The notes under the pieces are model-generated. The model made no database searches and was not told the origin of the DNA. It was given only the letters and a program-made list of their open reading frames with translations. From positions 1-38,240 of IMG/VR virus record IMGVR_UViG_3300003322_000545: 38,240 bases of DNA, one strand, 5' to 3'. The translations under genes and the position numbers were made by a program. This document shows, in pieces, positions 570-38,240 of the stretch (positions are counted from its first letter, which is position 1; every line of letters starts with the position of its first letter). This stretch comes from a virus.

Positions 570-2567
570 CTAATTTTTCCGATAGTACGGGGACGTGAAT
601 ATATCGCTTTTAAGGATTAGCCCATTTGCCCAGGAGGGGGCATTGTTCATTATTTTTTCCACAGCCTCTATAGCATATTCTTCTTCAATGTGTTCAGGTA
701 CTTCCGCTACAATCTCATCATGAACATGCATAACGACAGGAAACAGTTGAACTACATTTTTAAGCCCCTCCGCTAATATATCTCTGGCAATTGCTTGCAC
801 AGCGTTTTCGACGATCTTACCCCCATATAGCTGCGTTCTCTTCCATTTTTTATTAGTTTGATCGATACCCCAATAGCTTATCTCCCCCTTTCCTTTGGCG
901 TCATAGCTCGCATTCGGATAAAATAACTGTCTGCTTGACGGTAAGGTGAATATCAGTGAGCCCCCTTTGAATTGTACTGCTAACCTTTGTTCCGCAAATC
1001 GAATGATCTTGCCCGGGTACTCAAAGGCCGCAATAAATGCTCTTTCACACCTTGCCCAAAGACCATGCTGCCTGTGTGCAATCTCAGGATTTTCATTACG
1101 CCATGCCATTGCTATGGGGGCAAGCTCATCCTGACTTAGCCCCATTTCAAGCGCCCCCATGCGGACAAGAGCAGGTACCCAGCCCTGGTAACCAAGAGCG
1201 AGCTCGGCAACCTTTCCTTTATCGCGCTCTTTACTCGGTTTCTTGATGAGCTCGATAGGCACCTTTAGCATTTTAGCGGCTGAGGCTTCATAAATTTTGC
1301 CGTGAGTGGCAAATACCTCCATGCGCCATTTACAGTTCGATAACCAGGCTAAAATACGGGCTTCAATGGCCGACCAGTCCGCAATGAGAAGGTAATGACC
1401 CTCCCGGGCGACAAAAGCCGTACGCAAAAGTAGTTTAAGGGTGTTCAGAACGTCTGAGAAGAGCATAGTTAGGGTTTCGCAGTCATGGAGGGGGCTTATA
1501 GCCTTCCGCATGAACGTGATCTCTTTGGGGTTATAATCGCCTTGCTTGGGCAGGTTATGCACCTGTACACCTCTACCGGCCCACCTCCCTGTACGATTGG
1601 CGCCATAAAACTGGGTAATACCCCTTATAATACCCTCTACGTCCGCCATTCGGAGCATTACAGCGTATTTTTTTACGGATGAAAGAGAAAGCTCTTTGCG
1701 AATGTCAATCACTTCCTTGACTTCTCTTCGTATTCCTGGCTGGGATAAGAATTTGTCAAGGCTCTCCACTTTAACAGAAGTTATAACCAATCCTGTTCTT
1801 TCCTGTAACCACTTCATTAATTGGGTAGGAGAGTTAGGATTATCAAGACCCGTAATTAGCTGGCTTCTTTTAAACAGGTTTGCAAAATGCTCTTTAATAA
1901 GCTCAAGGGCTTTACGGATCATTGGCAGATCGGTTCGTATACCTCTCTCGTTAATACGGTAGTCCAGGACAAATAATTCATACTCTTGCGGAGGTAGTTC
2001 TACCGGTAAGGCATAGTCTATTGCTACTTCAACTTCAACGTCTGTGTTATTGTATTTTTTAAAAAGCTCCCATCGTTCAGGCGAATGATGGGGTAATTTT
2101 CTCGTAGCGTAGTTTAATTTCTTTGTGGGTTTAGTAATAGGGGTGCAAAATTCTTTAACTAATCTGCGACCTTCGGCCATTTTACCGAGGCTTAATTTAA
2201 GAGCAATAGCAGAAGATTCTAACTTTAAAGGGTATCCGTTATATGCGGCTTTAGTCATAGTGCAATACCAATTAAAGAAATTTAAAATAATATGGTATTT
2301 CTGTTTGAAATACTTTTTAAGGCATGTATACTCAAAAAACACATTCCAGGCTTTTTTTACTTCTTCCCTTCTAGTAATATGTCTAACTACCTCTTTTGGT
2401 AATTCTTCGCCATTTAACAAGTCTATGGTTGTGGTAAACAGTTCATCAGAAAATCGGTATGAGAAAAGAATGATTTCAAAGCTCTCATGCCTAACGTACT
2501 CGAACATACCTACTTTGGTGATATCAAGCTCGCAGAAAGTTTCTATATCAATGTGGAGGGCTCTCAT
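570..2567 (-). CDS. Family A DNA polymerase with 3'-5' exonuclease domain
   Basis: The 665-residue protein replicates the phage genome. Its N-terminus carries a DnaQ-like proofreading exonuclease: D7-I-E9 (ExoI), an NVFFE element near residue 75 (ExoII) and a Y-x3-D element in KKYNNTDVEVE near residue 172 (ExoIII). The polymerase domain has motif A around D397 (ADWSAIEARIL), a motif B-like KGKVAELALGYQG, and motif C with H616-D617-E618 (MHVHDEIVAEVP). The length and layout match phage Pol I-like enzymes linked to DUF2815 and DUF2800 genes. The ATG at 2567 is chosen because the ATG at 2575 meets a stop after three codons. It is separated from the ssDNA-binding gene by a hairpin (2592-2629) that could lower its expression. 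All catalytic residues appear intact. Confidence 0.96.
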   Translation of the reverse strand: MRALHIDIETFCELDITKVGMFEYVRHESFEIILFSYRFSDELFTTTIDLLNGEELPKEVVRHITRREEVKKAWNVFFEYTCLKKYFKQKYHIILNFFNWYCTMTKAAYNGYPLKLESSAIALKLSLGKMAEGRRLVKEFCTPITKPTKKLNYATRKLPHHSPERWELFKKYNNTDVEVEVAIDYALPVELPPQEYELFVLDYRINERGIRTDLPMIRKALELIKEHFANLFKRSQLITGLDNPNSPTQLMKWLQERTGLVITSVKVESLDKFLSQPGIRREVKEVIDIRKELSLSSVKKYAVMLRMADVEGIIRGITQFYGANRTGRWAGRGVQVHNLPKQGDYNPKEITFMRKAISPLHDCETLTMLFSDVLNTLKLLLRTAFVAREGHYLLIADWSAIEARILAWLSNCKWRMEVFATHGKIYEASAAKMLKVPIELIKKPSKERDKGKVAELALGYQGWVPALVRMGALEMGLSQDELAPIAMAWRNENPEIAHRQHGLWARCERAFIAAFEYPGKIIRFAEQRLAVQFKGGSLIFTLPSSRQLFYPNASYDAKGKGEISYWGIDQTNKKWKRTQLYGGKIVENAVQAIARDILAEGLKNVVQLFPVVMHVHDEIVAEVPEHIEEEYAIEAVEKIMNNAPSWANGLILKSDIFTSPYYRKN

Positions 2568-9020: not shown

Positions 9021-12000
9021 TTATTTTTTCGTAACAATTATATTATAAGTTCTTGCCCCGATCGTCCCTGACCCTGTACTGAAATTATTAGCGCGTACGG
9101 TAACTGTGTTAGCCGATGACACCCACGCATCGTATATTTCCCCATTCGCCATACCTGCACCATCTGAGGTAGTAATCTGGACAGGATCGCCAACAGCCGC
9201 CCCGGTAACTGTGAGCGTTGTGGTTGTACTGCTTCCTGCGCTTATCGACCCTGGTGTCCAGGATAAGGAGCCTTTTAGTATTGTTATCTCGGACCCTAAT
9301 TTTACATAGTCAAATTGAACGGATGGCGTTCCGCCGGTAAATCCTGGCTTTGTGCAAACCCAATGATCTATTGAATCGTTTGGCGAATACGATCTATCGT
9401 TATAGATAATATCTCCTTTACTAAAGGCGATTTGGCTCGTAGCAAATGGGAGATAACCACATCTTAATTCTTGTGATAAATCAGCGTCTTTCAACTCAAC
9501 ACTATCTGTTGTAGATGTGGCGTTTCTGTTAATCGTTACGGTTGTACCAGATATTCCTGTAATTCTACTACCTTGCGGTATTCCTGTTCCTTTTACCCAA
9601 TCGCCGACTAGCGGTTGCCAATACGAAAAATGACAGCCAGTTATAGAACTTGATCCGCTTGTTATATTACCGAAAAATGTTGGCAGCACGTGCGGTATAC
9701 GAGTTATTATAATTGAATAAGTCGTAGTCTCATCAAGACCGAATGGGATATACTTAATATGTATCGTATCGTTACTTATGGAGCTAATTTGACCTAAGAC
9801 GGTAGGACCACTTTGGAATAGTGAATTGTCCCCCGACCACGACACAGCATTACCAATGGTCATAACGTCGTCTACCTGATACTGTAATGGGTCGCTTGAA
9901 ACAAAGTACGCCGTAGCTGTTGGCGTATCAATATTTATAGTTGCGAAATCTGAATTAAAATACTCAATTTTTGGCGAACGGCTACTAAGCGTAACACGTC
10001 TGTAAACATCTTCGGATACGTATTTTACGCCCGGCAATATTACAGTTGAGTTTGATAATACAGGCTGAAAGCTTGAAGTATTTATAATATTCGACTGCCA
10101 ACCATTTCCTGATTGCCCACTCCCGAGAAACTGGCAATTATCAAATTGCGTTCTATTTAATTTCCCATCGAAAAGACTTGCATCCATGTTTACTGGCAAG
10201 CATAATAATGCGACGCCATCAAATGATAGGTTGCCAATATTAAAAGCTACTGCCATTTTAGACACATTATCAAAGTATCCGAATCTACCGCCTTTAAACG
10301 AAACCTGACTTCCTTCGGCTACGCGTTGCGGTTGAAACCCGACCGAGTGATCCGCGTTTAATATTAACTCGCAATCTGTAAACTGGACAGGAGAAGAGCA
10401 CTTACCTAATGAAAAAAGGCTTTCGCTATAACACTGACTAAATGTTATACCCCCAAACGTGCCGCTTGTAGAATATAAATATTTTGTCGCGCCAGCAAAG
10501 TTACAACGTTTCACGTTTGGTGGCGTACCAGTTTGAGCGCCGTAATCAATGCCGTTTATTATGTATTGGTGAAAAAGAAAATAGCAATTCTCTATTGTGT
10601 TTGCACGTGATTGTGTTTGACCGCACCCCCATGCAACGCGATTAGATTCAAAGTAACAGTCCTGAACCTTTATGTTATCACCATTAGCTACGGCACCGGC
10701 AGCGCCTTCCAATACGCCTACAACAAACCGCTTAAATGAACAATTTCTTATTGTTAACTGAGATGTTCCGCCCGTACCACTATTTGAATAGTACGATGAC
10801 ATGCCAGGATACCTATTCCCCGAGGCAACACTACTATGATACCCATCTATCACAATGGCCGCATGAGGCGAGTTAATATTATCCCTTACACCTGAAGCCC
10901 ATTGAGAGCGGGTCCATGTTACAATATTACCTATACTTGGATTGGGGCTATTACCTATAAAAGTTATATTATCAATCTCTACTTGTCTGCCTATCATTAT
11001 GTGGAATCCAAATCCATCCACATTATTTACACTTATGATTGTAGCATGACCGACAAGAAACGAGGCACCAGAAATTCTAAGCGTTACAAACGTGTATTCT
11101 GAGCCTGATTTCTTTACTATGTTTATATCATTAGCTAAATACGTGCCGCCTGAAAATCTAACAGTTGGCGCTTTGGCTGAAGCAATAGCAAAATTGATAG
11201 CTTTCTGTATATAGTAAGAATCGTCAGTGCCGTCATCAGGAACAGCGCCGAACCAGTCTACTAATATGTAGTCTTCATAATAACGGATAAATCTACCTAC
11301 GGATATTCCTGTTCGTTGTATCACCATTACACTGTCATCTGTTGCCGTGCTTGTTGCGTCATAGTAGAAATCCCCGATTATTTTATTTTGTATAAGCCGG
11401 TATACAACGTTTGTTGATACGTTGTTCATTGTTCGCAAATCTGAAACAGAGTTAATTATCTCAATTTTATCTAACTTCTTTTTATCAGATGCGGATAACA
11501 CCCCTGCTTTTATCGTGTCTGCTTTTAATATTAATGCATCAGTGCCCGTACTGCTTAATATTGTAACCGTAGTATCAGTTCTGAGACTATCTAAATTTGT
11601 TGAACCCGTAGCTGCTGGTATTTTTATAATGGCTTCAAGCCCCGTAACGGGATCAATCCTTGTCGTCAGCATACTATCGCCCGTAGCGGCTCTTACTGGC
11701 AGGATCAAAAGACTATCACTTATAACCATCCTTGTCTTTAATATGGAGCTGTCTTTTGTGGTTGTAGCTATTACGATCTTTGTACCTTGCGTCGAGTCTG
11801 TCCAGTCTTGGGTTGTTTGGGCATACATTGTAGCCCTGCTACTACTTGTATATACCGTACCCGTATACCCCCTTCCACTGAAGTTCCATAAATCAGTGCC
11901 TACAGTTATAGCTAACGGAGTGCCAATCGTTCCTAAAGCTCTCCTGAATACGATTGTGTTAGTACCTGTACCAAAGGCCGATAAGGCCATTGCATTCATG

Positions 12001-12470
12001 TTATCACTGGTAGCGTTTAATTTAGCTAATCCGCCAGAGTTAATAGCAGTCGGCCCTATAATAAGCCGACCGTTATTCAGACCTTGACTCCGGTCATAGA
12101 TAAAGTTTGTATCGTTATTAAAACGGCTTAACCCATTACTGAAAGGTATTTGGTATACACCTCCTGCGCCTTGAAGCCCCCTTATAATAAACTGCCTGAA
12201 TACTCCATTCTTTTTATAATGGAAAATAGAGTCTTGGGTTACATATAAGGTATCAATGCCCAGGGTGACCGAACCGCCGCGGGAGCTATCAATAAAGTCG
12301 ATCATTCCCGCAATCAAATTATGAAGCCTTAAATTTGTAAAGGCTTTACTTGCATTATTGTCAATAAAGCGGTTATTATAATTGCGCAAGGAATCTGTAC
12401 CCGTGAATTGAGCTGTAACCGTGAGGCTCATAAGGCCGAAAAGAAAACTTAAGATATATTTCATAAACAT
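9021..12470 (-). CDS. Tail fibre/spike with beta-helix domain and N-terminal signal peptide
   Basis: The 1149-residue protein is the last and largest tail gene and is likely the receptor-binding or glycan-degrading spike. A central pectate-lyase-like right-handed beta-helix begins near residue 400 ([20 protein letters not shown], then AINFA and a [12 protein letters not shown] strand) and continues with repeated short strands. Residues 60-330 are rich in Ser/Thr/Asp with [10 protein letters not shown]-type repeats, and the end is a small beta domain rich in Ser, Thr and Gly. The N-terminus is a typical Sec signal peptide (basic MFMKY, hydrophobic [13 protein letters not shown], then TAQ), very unusual for a virion protein that assembles in the cytoplasm. 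ATGs at 12470 and 12464 are both possible. Confidence 0.85.
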
Positions 12471-33688: not shown

Positions 33689-34324
33689 TTACGAATATTT
33701 TTTCATTACAATATAGCTACCCCACTGCTCTGCCATTGCCGTCGCAATTCCGGGGTAAGTCTTTGATCTTATCTTAGCTCTCTCTTCGGAAGGCGGAAGT
33801 TTATATATACGCTGCTCTCTTCCACTAACTATGTTCGTGGGTTTCAAAAGAGGTAAGTTTTTAAGCCAAAGACACGTTGCTTTTTGTTCTCCGTGACCGA
33901 ACTGCCAAGGCTGAATAATTTGTGAAGGCTTCCAGGGAAAGCCAATACTGACCCCCTCTTCATATAAAATAGGAAACCACTTTTTAATATAATTTCCGCT
34001 ATTCATAATACCAATAGGGTTTTCAACCGCATCACTATAATTCCAAACATCTAAAAAAAACTTGATGGCTGCGGCTTGCGTGCCATCTTTTCTTTTCTCG
34101 TCAAACCACCGTGCCCCGGATACGGCTAAATGATCGCATGGCGGAAAGGAGATAACTAAATCCCAACGCCAATTATATCTGATTTTATAGAAGTTCTCCT
34201 GAAAATGATATTTAGGAAAACCTCCGGAGCATGGTTGCAGATCGCAGCTATAAGCGTCAAATTTTAAAGCTCTAAAGGCTTTAGTTACTTCCTGACTTTC
34301 TTCACAGCCAATTAATACATTCAT
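33689..34324 (-). CDS. Dcm-like phage protein, putative cytosine methyltransferase
   Basis: The 211-residue protein belongs to a common phage group annotated as DNA cytosine methyltransferase. MNVLIGCEESQEVTKAFRAL forms the SAM-binding first strand; DLVISFPPCDHLAVSGARWF has C63 in the place of the catalytic Cys of motif IV (PPC instead of PCQ); VENPIG near residue 100 matches the ENP motif; and a PWQFGHGEQKATCLWLKNLP block follows. It lacks a large target-recognition domain, so activity and target are uncertain. It overlaps the helicase gene by 4 nt and has no partner restriction enzyme in the window. Confidence 0.8.
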   Translation of the reverse strand: MNVLIGCEESQEVTKAFRALKFDAYSCDLQPCSGGFPKYHFQENFYKIRYNWRWDLVISFPPCDHLAVSGARWFDEKRKDGTQAAAIKFFLDVWNYSDAVENPIGIMNSGNYIKKWFPILYEEGVSIGFPWKPSQIIQPWQFGHGEQKATCLWLKNLPLLKPTNIVSGREQRIYKLPPSEERAKIRSKTYPGIATAMAEQWGSYIVMKKYS

Positions 34325-35688
34325 GAGTATTTTTTTATAAGTGCTTTGGTTGCATTCATTAAAGCATTCTGTCCTTTTTCTTTATTCAAGTCAGCCTCTA
34401 TTATTCGCTCATCAATGGTACCTATTGCTTTTAATTTAGAGCTCACGACAGTATACTTTTGTCCAGGCCGCATAAGTCGAGCGTCGGCTTGTTGCCTTAA
34501 TTCTAAACTCCATATAAGATCATACCATAGCTGCGTACAACCCCCGTGTTGTAAGTTAAGCCCATGCCCTGCGCTTGCGGGGTGTAAAAACATAATAGAA
34601 GTCTTACCTCTGTTCCATGTATCAATATCTGCATCGCTATTGAGTAATAAAGGTTTCAGTTTTTTGAATTTCCTTAAAAGAACCTCCTTTGTGTGCTGAA
34701 ACCAGTAAAAGACAATGAGGGGCTTACCAGTAAGGCAATCGACATATTCTTCAAGCGCATCAAGCTTATAACTGTGGACATTAAATGCTTTCTTATCCTC
34801 GTCATAAATAAATCCGCTACTAAATTGCCTGAGCTTATTAGATAAGGCGGCTGCGCTTGTAGCTGTTATTTCTTTTTCGGTATTCAGTAACTTCAATACT
34901 TGCTCCTTCTCAAAATCATAATACATGTCCATTGTCTTTTTCCCAAACTCGATATCAATAACTCTGTCAATCTTAGGGGGTAAGTCAATGTAGTCACGTG
35001 TTTTCATCGAGATGCAGATATCTTTTATGGCGTCATGTATCTTCTTATCTGCTCCCGGTAATAATTCGTAAGTTGCCACATAGTCGCTTACCATTCTTGT
35101 GACCCTGAAAAAGTTATCACGGTAATATGTAATCGTTTTACCAAGCCGCTCGCCCATGTCAAGTAATTTCATTTGCGCCCATAAATCCATAAGGCTATTA
35201 GGAGCTGGTGTTCCTGTTAAGCCGATCATGCGGTAGGTCTTAGGCCTCTTCTTCATAAGCGCTTTTGTCCGCTCGCTGCTCGGATTTTTAAAACTACTGA
35301 ACTCGTCACCAACCACGCAATCGAAAGGCCACTTCTCCCCATAATAAGCCACTAACCAGGGGACAAGTTCTCGGTTGATAATATAGATATCCCTTTTAAC
35401 CGCAAGAGCTTTTATACGTTGCTTAACGCTGCCCATAACACGAATGTAAGAGAGCCCTTTCAGGTGATCCCACTTTTCAATTTCATCCGGCCAAACCTTA
35501 GAGGCTACACGCTTAGGAGCTATGATTAACACGCGTTGTATCTCCATATAATGGTTAATAAGCCGCTCAATCGCTGTTAAGGTGATAACTGTCTTGCCTA
35601 AGCCCATTTCAAAGAGTAGGCCGCAATAGCGATTTTTATAAATATGCTTCTCGCCGTGTAGCTGGTATTGGTACGGTTTGTATCTCAT
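34321..35688 (-). CDS. SNF2-type DEAD-box helicase/ATPase
   Basis: The 455-residue protein has superfamily 2 motifs in order: MGLGKT at residues 28-33 (motif I), IIAPKRVASKVWPDEI (Ia), VVGDEFSSFKN with D128-E129 (II), GLTGTPAPN near 155 (III), and a C-terminal lobe with FLHPASAGHGLNLQHGG and QADARLMRPGQ (V and VI). This is the SNF2-like protein of the DUF2800-DUF2815-polymerase-VapE-VRR-NUC module. It probably remodels or translocates on DNA during replication. It overlaps the VRR-NUC gene and the Dcm-like gene by 4 nt (ATGA) each. Confidence 0.93.
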   Translation of the reverse strand: MRYKPYQYQLHGEKHIYKNRYCGLLFEMGLGKTVITLTAIERLINHYMEIQRVLIIAPKRVASKVWPDEIEKWDHLKGLSYIRVMGSVKQRIKALAVKRDIYIINRELVPWLVAYYGEKWPFDCVVGDEFSSFKNPSSERTKALMKKRPKTYRMIGLTGTPAPNSLMDLWAQMKLLDMGERLGKTITYYRDNFFRVTRMVSDYVATYELLPGADKKIHDAIKDICISMKTRDYIDLPPKIDRVIDIEFGKKTMDMYYDFEKEQVLKLLNTEKEITATSAAALSNKLRQFSSGFIYDEDKKAFNVHSYKLDALEEYVDCLTGKPLIVFYWFQHTKEVLLRKFKKLKPLLLNSDADIDTWNRGKTSIMFLHPASAGHGLNLQHGGCTQLWYDLIWSLELRQQADARLMRPGQKYTVVSSKLKAIGTIDERIIEADLNKEKGQNALMNATKALIKKYS

Positions 35689-36011
35689 TTGAATTGCATG
35701 TAGGTTGTAAAATTGCGATCAATATATTTTATATCCCGCTTTACCTTTTCTATAAATTCGTCAACAGCCAATTTACTATTAAGCACATAAATAGTATGGT
35801 CAATTGCAACTATCTTTTTATGTACTTGCTTTTGCTTTGGCGATAATGAGCCTTTCAAGCTCTTAGTCTCTACCAGGTAGGAAAGGCCATGCTCAAACAT
35901 ACAGAGCCTGTCGGGGTTGCCATTCTTACCCATTTTGATAGTAAGCCCTCCGGCCTTCTTCACCTCTTGCAAAAGGTACCTCTCAATATTCTTTTCTAAT
36001 CGTTCATTCAT
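35685..36011 (-). CDS. VRR-NUC domain nuclease
   Basis: The 108-residue protein is a stand-alone VRR-NUC nuclease. The core has GNPDRL with D34, VETKS with E48 and K50, and a following SPKQKQVH with Q60, the standard catalytic set of this PD-(D/E)XK family. I use ATG 36011 (MNERLEKNIERYLL); a longer frame to 36056 needs TTG and runs into the repeat-rich non-coding region. Viral VRR-NUC proteins act on branched or flap DNA, and this gene is paired with the SNF2-type helicase by a 4 nt overlap. Confidence 0.92.
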   Translation of the reverse strand: MNERLEKNIERYLLQEVKKAGGLTIKMGKNGNPDRLCMFEHGLSYLVETKSLKGSLSPKQKQVHKKIVAIDHTIYVLNSKLAVDEFIEKVKRDIKYIDRNFTTYMQFK

Positions 36012-36330
36012 GTTATAATTTTTTATATAGGTCCGCAGGGAACGGCCCAGGTCCAAAATATTTTCTATAATTGTCCCAGCTCAAACCCTTATCTGGACTG
36101 TGTTTGAGGCCAAAAAGGGGGTATATTAGGTCCGTGGTCCAGTTTTTTTCCATATACTATAATGGCATTTAACATTCTAACATATTTTCTATTTTATCTT
36201 AAACTGTTAAATCCCTTATTACTCTTTATTACTATTATAATTGGACCTATTGGACCTAATATAAGGAAAGATAAGCCAGATAAGGGTTTTGGTGGTCCAA
36301 TTGGTAGGGCCTTTTACCGGTCCATTATAT
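36012..36330. repeat. Repeat-rich non-coding region, candidate origin or control region
   Basis: This AT-rich 319 bp gap has nine copies of GGTCC or GGACC (36030, 36050, 36129, 36136, 36243, 36252, 36294, 36319 and, just inside the gene, 36337), most within a wider NRGGTCCAAT-like repeat in both orientations. It also has a perfect 14-nt inverted repeat: AAACCCTTATCTGG at 36083-36096 and CCAGATAAGGGTTT at 36276-36289. It lies between the primase-helicase and the nuclease-helicase genes. Such iteron-like clusters mark replication origins or binding sites of a phage regulator. No consensus Bacteroidota promoter is visible in it. Confidence 0.75.
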
Positions 36331-38240
36331 TTAATTGGACCGATCTAAATTTTTCCTTGTCTCATTAAGCAGAAATTTCGCCCCTTTAAGATTATTGCGA
36401 CGATACCCCCTTTCTCTTATTTCGCCATCCCTGAATCTTGCTGGTTCCCAATGCGGGATGGATCGCATCATGTCGTTAATCTCCCTGGTTTCCCGTTTAT
36501 TAATATCTTTTACAGAACCCCCGAAAAGCTCCTGCCATATTTCCATAGGGGTTATTTTATCGCGGATAATGGTACCGGTTACTTGTAGTGGATCACCTTG
36601 TACGTATTCTCGTTTCTGCCATATATCCATAGAAGCCCAATTCTCGGGAACTTTCATGTCTAAGTATCTAATTAGGTCAGGTAACCGTACATCTTTTTCA
36701 GTGAACTCACTTTGTATCGCGTTCGCTTCTTTTTCGAGTTGCTCATCCAGATAAAGGGGCTCCCCCACCCAGTATAAGTAGTGCGCCTCTGCCCATATTT
36801 GCGGAATGATCTCTTTAAATTCCTCCCATTTCCGTGCGCCTACTACCCTTACCGGCCAATAACGTCGCCCTCCTGTTTGATCCCTCAGAGGTGTTTCATC
36901 ATTGAACGATCCTACAAATATGCCTTGTCGTAAGTATTCCATTTTATACCGTCCGTATGCCGGCCGCATCTCATCTCGGGTGTTATCCATAAAGTTCTTC
37001 ACGGCATTATCCTCCGCTCTGCTTAACCCGGCAAGCTCCCCGACTTCATTGATCCAGGAGCCTTGCAACTGTTCGACAGCTTCTTTTTTACCGATCATAC
37101 TAAACGTAAAGTTCTTGTTATACCATTGCCCCCCGAGAGCGGCCCAAAAAGATGACTTCCTAATCCCCTGTGCGCCCTGTAAAGACAACATGTAATCGAA
37201 CTTGCAACCAGGTTCCATAACCCTATTAACAGCCGCTACAAGCGTTTTACGCATGACTGCACGGACATAAGGGGTATCCTCCGCCCCCATATAATCAATG
37301 AGCAGCGTATCTATCCGGCTCACACCATCCCAGTGCAGGTTATTAAGGTAATCCCGAACGGGGTGGAACACGTTCTCAGCCCCTATTATATCGATCGCGT
37401 CACGGACCTTATTTTGCCCTGTGATCCCGTATTTGCGTTCTAAATAGCGCCTGATATGTGCCTCGTCAGTATCTGCCCATAAATAACGATCCTGTTTATC
37501 CCACTTGAACCGCTTGCGTTTAATCATATTGTTGCGGAACTCGTCTATTGCAATGCGGTCTTTTATGAGAGGATCGTTTTGAAGAATAACTACAATATTG
37601 TCGATTGTACTTTTAATCCCGCCTTGCTTATCGACTTCCAGGTTTTCGATCCAGTCGTTAGTATTCTCCGTTTCGACCTCAGTTTGTCCCTCCAACTGTT
37701 CGGGATCGTCGGCCAATCCCTCAAGGCCCCTAAAATCATTTGCCGCCCTTTCAATCCTTTCAGAGACGATTGCTTTCCTAACCTTCTTATCTTCAAGGGC
37801 GAGCTCCCGCATTTGAAGGAATGATGGGCGCTTATTGATTGGCGTGTGGTCGTCTGTTTCTGTATCCTGATCGCCGAAAAGGTGAATCCGAACCAGGTCG
37901 AAAGCATTACAGAGTTTTTCAGAAATGGGGTCAGTCCCATGATGCGAGTACGCGAAAACGTCGTCGTAGATAATAAGACCCGCCGAAGTTGACCCTTGTA
38001 AATAAGTGTACCGGTTAGGTATGTCGGATTTCTCATATACCCCGTCGAGGTATTTTTCGATCGCCTCTTCGATCGTAAACGCTGTATTAAAAGCCCCAAC
38101 AATGCCGGGTTTTTCAAGGGGGTTACCCTGTTTATTAATACCACGTTTAACGGCTTCAATCGCCTTTGCGGATACAGGCCATTGTGATGCGTCTTTCCAG
38201 TCATAATAAGAGTTTGGGCCATCCTGATAATGGAAAATAT
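36331..38240 (-). CDS. Primase-polymerase/VapE helicase, C-terminal part (starts at 565 across the joint)
   Basis: These codons continue the gene at 1-565 across the joint (the last 24 bases repeat 1-24) and supply residues about 189-816. The region at 37812-38216 has no internal start until M324, consistent with read-through from the other end. A VapE/VirE ATPase domain follows: DYLNNLHWDGVSRIDTLLID, a P-loop region LQGAQGIRKSSFW (residues 534-546), ATPase motif WINEVGELAGLSRAEDNAVK, then FVGSFNDETPLRDQTGGRRY with the arginine finger region. The P-loop has Arg541 where the last Gly of GxxxxGKS is expected. The protein probably unwinds DNA as a hexamer and primes synthesis. It ends in the GGWCC repeat region. 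Confidence 0.92.
   Translation of the reverse strand, partial: IFHYQDGPNSYYDWKDASQWPVSAKAIEAVKRGINKQGNPLEKPGIVGAFNTAFTIEEAIEKYLDGVYEKSDIPNRYTYLQGSTSAGLIIYDDVFAYSHHGTDPISEKLCNAFDLVRIHLFGDQDTETDDHTPINKRPSFLQMRELALEDKKVRKAIVSERIERAANDFRGLEGLADDPEQLEGQTEVETENTNDWIENLEVDKQGGIKSTIDNIVVILQNDPLIKDRIAIDEFRNNMIKRKRFKWDKQDRYLWADTDEAHIRRYLERKYGITGQNKVRDAIDIIGAENVFHPVRDYLNNLHWDGVSRIDTLLIDYMGAEDTPYVRAVMRKTLVAAVNRVMEPGCKFDYMLSLQGAQGIRKSSFWAALGGQWYNKNFTFSMIGKKEAVEQLQGSWINEVGELAGLSRAEDNAVKNFMDNTRDEMRPAYGRYKMEYLRQGIFVGSFNDETPLRDQTGGRRYWPVRVVGARKWEEFKEIIPQIWAEAHYLYWVGEPLYLDEQLEKEANAIQSEFTEKDVRLPDLIRYLDMKVPENWASMDIWQKREYVQGDPLQVTGTIIRDKITPMEIWQELFGGSVKDINKRETREINDMMRSIPHWEPARFRDGEIRERGYRRNNLKGAKFLLNETRKNLDRSN
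38217..38240. repeat. Terminal direct repeat, right copy
   Basis: Identical to positions 1-24. It should be counted once when the genome is closed, giving about 38,216 bp. Confidence 0.95.

Follow-up and report, generated by a model that had tools for sequence, protein, structure and literature searches.

A GGWCC iteron array next to the AEP-VapE gene of a phage genome: a probable replication origin of the SaPI Rep-ori kind

A cluster of short GGWCC words lies immediately 3' of the AEP-VapE primase-helicase gene in the window, the 38,240-bp stretch of viral DNA analyzed here. The array is very probably a replication origin; the putative reader of its iterons is the winged helix at the C-terminus of AEP-VapE, the product of the adjoining upstream gene. 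An origin with initiator-binding iterons had been proposed in an earlier note made from the letters of this DNA, and is strongly supported by the position of the array, its AT-rich core and inverted pairs, a skeleton recurring at other loci, and the co-variation of word and winged helix. The closest fit is with the Rep-ori systems of Staphylococcus aureus pathogenicity islands (SaPIs; PMC7581432), of which the array would be a phage representative; all the defining features of this kind that can be tested by sequence were found in the window. The sequence evidence consists of the site cluster, the skeleton, the conservation of the latter with changed letters, the co-variation with the wing, and a layout common to SaPI1-type elements; from these we infer binding, ring assembly, melting and initiation.

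The array and its genome setting

The window carries an exact 24-bp terminal repeat (positions 1-24 and 38217-38240) and its record is that of a complete virus; the repeat closes the map into a circle of 38,216 bp. The contig, either circular or a circular permutation, is cut inside the AEP-VapE gene, which would therefore be split by annotation of the linear record. The gene is a single ORF of 816-841 codons, open across the terminal repeat, covering 562 to 1 and, past the contig junction, 38240 to 36331, with the stop codon at 36331-36333. The product is ~62-67% identical to the 808-aa protein of the nearest relative, locus L002 (67% over 798 aa). No Pfam hit was obtained in the N-terminal region of the protein, where a putative AEP domain is assigned from the annotation of relatives.

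The array fills the gap between the AEP-VapE gene and the VRR-NUC/SNF2 pair (Table 1), the nuclease being 59% identical to its L002 counterpart. The placement within replication genes given in the earlier note is correct, primase-helicase and polymerase residing on one side, nuclease and SNF2 helicase on the other. A DNA methyltransferase-like protein (phrog_757) is encoded at 33689-34324, with the SNF2 helicase gene on one side and the packaging genes on the other; the 1149-aa protein encoded at 9021-12470 has no match in PHROGs. The host is likely a member of the Bacteroidota, since the A2 profile found its best bacterial loci in Chitinophaga and in a Bacteroidetes MAG, and the module is common to Bacuni_F1.

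Table 1. Features of the array and of the surrounding replication genes (window coordinates; offsets are relative to the first core-flanking copy)
Feature	Position	Strand	Remarks
Family A DNA polymerase; on the circular map, the gene immediately 5' of AEP-VapE	570..2567	-	PF00476 E 1e-17; phrog_17
AEP-VapE primase-helicase gene, proposed initiator	36331..38240 (3' part) + 1-562 (5' part, across contig junction)	-	PF05272 E 2.8e-72
VapE C-terminal winged-helix region, proposed iteron reader	36334..36530	-	AF2 model; 7pds match; co-variation with word
Iteron copy GGTCCAA	36337..36341	-	Offset -85; within last VapE codons
Iteron copy, opposite orientation	36319..36323	+	Offset -67
Iteron copy, opposite orientation	36294..36298	+	Offset -42; conserved slot -42 to -48
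Arm of perfect 14-nt inverted repeat (CCAGATAAGGGTTT)	36276..36289	.	Between -42 copy and core-flanking pair
Core-flanking direct pair, copy 1 (AGGTCCAAT)	36252..36256	-	Skeleton scan
Core-flanking direct pair, copy 2	36243..36247	-	9 bp from copy 1; skeleton scan
AT-rich core, proposed unwinding element	36141..36242	.	80% A+T; imperfect inverted repeat 36164-36184 / 36195-36215
Far-side inverted pair, copy 1	36136..36140	+	TGGTCCA, one word base differs; skeleton scan
Far-side inverted pair, copy 2	36129..36133	+	7 bp away from copy 1; skeleton scan
Second arm of 14-nt inverted repeat (AAACCCTTATCTGG)	36083..36096	.	
Distal iteron copy	36050..36054	+	
Distal iteron copy	36030..36034	+	19 bp ahead of VRR-NUC start codon
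VRR-NUC-type nuclease, next gene of module	35685..36011	-	PF08774 E 0.004, below cut-off; phrog_93 endonuclease E 4e-18
SNF2-type helicase	34321..35688	-	PF00176 E 7.5e-24

Of the 19 GGWCC sites of the window, nine lie at 36030-36341 and ten in the other ~37.9 kb. Nine to ten copies in about 310 bp, where fewer than one was expected, had been reported; nine were counted, and the rate in the rest of the window predicts 0.08 copies in 312 bp. The Poisson probability of such a cluster is ~4e-16, and ~5e-14 once all window positions are allowed for. The nine copies span offsets -10 to +297 relative to the VapE stop. The perfect 14-nt inverted repeat already noticed was found again, and a perfect 12-nt inverted repeat is nested within it (TATATTAGGTCC at 36122-36133, GGACCTAATATA at 36252-36263). 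Between the inner GGWCC copies 82 of 102 residues are A or T. The region is non-coding, as described in the earlier note, except at the first copy, which overlaps VapE codons. A search of the window in Rfam gave no match to curated RNA families. An inflection of the cumulative GC skew, suggested in the earlier note as a mark of the origin, is absent at the array, the skew being monotonic; all large genes lie on one strand, and the skew is thus uninformative here.

Outside the array GGWCC, an AvaII-type site, is depleted (10 copies vs. ~37 expected from shuffles), as had been judged by eye; the same holds for the window as a whole (19 vs. 37 expected from shuffles), and 15.5 kb of L002 contain no GGWCC. 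Restriction avoidance could account for the depletion, as could the avoidance of sites acting as decoys for the initiator.

The skeleton at other VapE loci and at SaPI1-type origins

VapE loci sampled from viral and bacterial genome collections (138 in all) were scanned, regardless of the word, between -120 and +400 relative to the VapE stop. The scan required a direct pair of copies with 7-10 bp spacing, followed after 85-135 bp by an inverted pair, also with 7-10 bp spacing. It matched 60/138 loci, and 59 were kept as carriers of a strict skeleton; L097 was left out because its core is G+C-rich and the match probably due to chance. Typically, two direct ~7-nt words 8-9 bp apart, a core of 85-115 bp, AT-rich in most loci, and two inverted copies again 8-9 bp apart are found. 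Elsewhere in the same loci 23 clusters were detected in 1.54 Mb (0.008 expected per region), and none in 690 shuffled regions. In 87/138 loci no other 400-bp stretch is as rich in repeats as that following the VapE stop. Skeleton or repeat-rich signal is present in 95/138 loci; neither was found in 43, in many of which VapE is followed by a short gap or by none (median 191 vs. 296 bp).

Among 50 non-redundant loci, members of a pair are spaced by 9 or 8 bp, and the median distance between pairs is ~112 bp. Copies occupy fixed slots, + copies at approximately -86 and -77, - copies mostly at -42 to -48, the ++ pair at 0 and 9, the -- pair at ~112 and +9. In the window, copies reside at offsets -85, -67, -42, 0, 9, 116, 123, 202 and 222; those at -85, -42, 0, 9, 116 and 123 place the window under the slot rule. 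A cluster of short words arisen in an AT-rich gap by chance or composition is, in view of these data, a negligible prospect. The raw repeat score of the window array (z 4.1) is one of the lower ones, but the Poisson value given above, the lack of skeletons in the shuffled controls and the slots common to unrelated loci refute this explanation.

The letters of the word vary by lineage. Repeated GTGGACGT is found in the same gap of L002; L020 features GGAAACGGT and L012 TACAACAGA/TACTACAGA in the gap after VapE, both with inverted copies beyond the AT-rich core. GGTCCA in the window is replaced elsewhere by CGTCCA, GTTGCCG, GTATCCA, GGTAACA, GTGTCCA, GTGGGCG, TTGGACA, ACTACCG or TGTTGCAT, the register of several words being uncertain. 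The earlier note had made its reading depend on a clustered distribution of GGWCC and on a spacing conserved in related phages: the distribution is not uniform and the spacing is kept in relatives, the letters are not. As a consequence, a search of relatives for GGWCC arrays finds nothing. The lack of such arrays was dropped as an argument against the origin, as arrays made up by other words are present there.

The same skeleton, with different words, is found in VapE (VirE) phages of Staphylococcus, Enterococcus, Clostridioides and Paenibacillus and in Bacteroides phage Bacuni_F1, in which the order AEP-VapE, gap, nuclease and/or helicase matches that of the window. The gap is annotated as origin in none of the records of these phages examined, and no description of a VapE phage origin was found in the literature searched. 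Skeletons are present in Bacuni_F1, phiCDKH02, AE4_2 and AJG77; Corynebacterium phage Troy hosts a dense GGGACAA array without a strict skeleton. The skeleton is missing in the cultured Bacteroidota phages BF494P1, BV57P1, BO668P2, ARB14 and PM21P2 (L337-L340, L345), which have VapE proteins of 31-39% identity and other downstream layouts. VapE alone does not imply an origin of this type, as indicated by these phages and by the 43 loci lacking either signal.

The fold closest to the AF2 model of the window protein is 7pds, "PriRep1 with dsDNA" (Foldseek TM 0.72-0.80), also the only significant PDB relative by sequence (E 2.7e-127, A3 profile). From its name and from the SaPI1-type loci, we infer that 7pds is SaPI1 Rep. 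Loci around relatives of the 7pds protein form a SaPI1-type set of 41 distinct members, 36 of which carry the skeleton, with words of the TGTCT, TGTCC or TGTTC type. As in the window, a VapE-family initiator helicase is encoded and iterons lie directly 3' of the gene; as in the phages, a direct pair, a core and an inverted pair follow one another, and the lineage word is tied to the C-terminal wing. The VapE-family (PF05272) AAA+ initiator, the multiple short iterons directly 3' of its gene and the AT-rich core between opposed pairs (36243-36256 and 36129-36140) are all present in the window. The two groups differ in spacing, direct and inverted pairs of SaPI1-type loci having 8-bp spacing with 80-91 bp between pairs in most, those of phages 8-9 bp and ~100-120 bp. 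Gene-proximal copies run all in one direction in the SaPI loci examined, whereas in phages they are + at -86/-77 and - near -43. Moreover, SaPIs are satellites with a shorter Rep, while the window encodes an AEP-VapE fusion adjoining a phage polymerase.

An operator cluster, bound by a repressor, an activator or VapE itself and controlling VRR-NUC, SNF2 and then packaging, is improbable. The array is located upstream of a run of same-strand genes, one sigma-70-like match is found on the gene strand, and initiators often autoregulate too. Yet the sigma-70-like match is at chance level (1 found vs. 1.7 expected in shuffles), and no Bacteroidota-type promoter was found at the array. A symmetrical AT-rich core of ~100 bp between converging pairs is not expected of an operator, nor is the occurrence of this layout at SaPI1-type origins; in addition, the word tracks the primase-helicase, and no regulator gene was identified next to the array. 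The late-gene operator array envisaged as an alternative in the earlier note has nothing specific in its favor.

Other known systems share some features with the putative origin of the window. SCCmec Cch2 binds iterons downstream of its own gene through its C-terminus, as determined by gel shift, and its site has three iterons only (PMC7581432). SaPI5 Rep (7ola/7om0) and Cch2 have in common with the proposed system a self-loading initiator helicase, C-terminal iteron binding and a site 3' of the gene, but SaPI5 Rep, a D5-type primase-helicase, and Cch2 belong to another helicase family (D5_N / Primase_Cterm), and 7ola/7om0 match the window model weakly (TM 0.3-0.4). Iteron plasmid origins of the RK2/P1 type similarly feature short direct repeats adjoining an AT-rich region. 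In these plasmids iterons of ~20 bp are found on one side and Rep recruits the host helicase; in the window short words are found on both sides, and the proposed initiator is itself the helicase.

The VapE winged helix and the iteron word

The C-terminal end of VapE is predicted to be a winged helix, formed in the AF2 model (mean pLDDT 80) by helices 409-416 and 426-437 and strands 442-449 and 452-459. Residues changed between staphylococcal word classes, located in the last ~50 of VapE, fall in this predicted domain. VapE proteins of L098, L106 and L107 are 97-99% identical over residues 1-640. L107 differs from both L098 and L106 at 17 residues, 10 of which lie at 753-802, and the word is GTGTTACT in L098/L106 vs. 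GCGTCCCTT in L107. All four core-flanking copies and most of the others change word between L098/L106 and L107, slots and core being kept; some L107 copies carry a one-base variant of GCGTCCCTT. L246 is 99% identical to L098 over residues 1-640, yet has a third wing and TGTTGCAT. In more distant proteins, the GCGTCCC class recurs at L219 and L220, and the GTGTTACT class at L259. The Staphylococcus-type loci L098, L107 and L246, with near-identical primase-helicases, three wings and three words, are natural specificity switches.

The end of the gene adjoins the array, and linkage alone could therefore account for some of the association of word with wing. It is unlikely to account for all of it: the far pair, ~300 bp from the gene and past the conserved core, changes too.

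In SaPI1-type loci, Q two residues before R[FY]G is found with TGTCT, R at this position with R in GxQ is found with TGTCC, and L or P in GxQ with TGTTC, with no exception among matched wing types; two loci without a match to the wing pattern stand outside this comparison. Q facing A and R facing G would be in keeping with the usual chemistry of base recognition. Among the phages, GTC accompanies K or R at the GxQ position, and GTT accompanies other residues (4/0 vs. 1/12; Fisher P 0.002, relatedness ignored), a test only partly independent, as the hypothesis came from SaPI and staphylococcal data and staphylococcal loci are included in the count. The window, with R and GGTCCA, fits the rule. 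A universal correlation of word and VapE C-terminus was considered and set aside, being present but weak in a genome-wide Mantel analysis (partial r 0.125, 10/1000 permutations).

The best candidate for the domain recognizing the GGTCCAA iterons is the C-terminal winged helix of VapE. It is quite unlikely that the array is an origin read by another host or phage protein, VapE being just recruited to it. Small phage DNA-binding proteins exist, and the contact between VapE and iterons in the window phage is a predicted one; however, near-identical phages that differ in word have their VapE changes clustered at the C-terminus, two wing residues predict the word in SaPI1-type loci, and the GxQ association is seen across phages and fits the window.

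Proposed initiation and the AT-rich core

In the proposed mechanism, the C-terminal winged helix of AEP-VapE would bind the GGTCCAA iterons, and the converging pairs at either side of the AT-rich core would position helicase rings, probably two facing hexamers. The rings would melt the core, and the fused primase domain would then prime. The phage family A polymerase, encoded upstream, and the SNF2 helicase and the nuclease, encoded by the downstream genes, would act at the forks. Recognition domain and target adjoin in the DNA, and specificity can thus change by one recombination tract or by co-evolution; the word would drift, and the spacing stay.

The data lean towards a single origin grammar for AEP-VapE phages of Bacillota and Bacteroidota and for SaPI1-type satellites, with fixed positions and a free word that is predictable from a handful of C-terminal wing residues (K/R in GxQ with GTC, hydrophobic residues or P with GTT; in SaPI1-type proteins, T vs. 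C at the next base with Q vs. R at the second residue ahead of R[FY]G). Arrays would switch with the wing, giving replicon families with mutually exclusive origins. As far as the literature examined shows, the cross-phylum skeleton, the switching of word together with wing and the candidate code of two positions are new with respect to the SaPI Rep-ori description. Sequence alone would allow origins to be predicted in the large class of VapE-encoding phages and prophages, the signal being present at 95 of the sampled loci, and phage origins would be tied to those of pathogenicity islands. How an initiator and at least ten binding sites change specificity together is a puzzle, which can be tested because the near-identical L098, L107 and L246 differ at just the expected residues and bases. 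If the wing code is true, the compatibility of phage and satellite origins would be readable from sequence.

The window core may fold into a hairpin (z -5.0, DNA parameters). The hairpin was rejected as a universal feature, the mean z over 50 cores being -1.0, with five cores below -2, which denotes a tendency only. In 12/50 cores TTAGG precedes CCTAA, with a spacing of 29-30 bp that hardly varies (shuffle mean 0.29, maximum 2 in 200). The pair is not found in the window core, which has its own imperfect inverted repeat instead. Cores with TTAGG/CCTAA include those of L054, L062, L098, L109, L113, L115, L117, L133, L136 and L141, in which the positions of the two words are nearly fixed; the pair is perhaps a priming or melting element.
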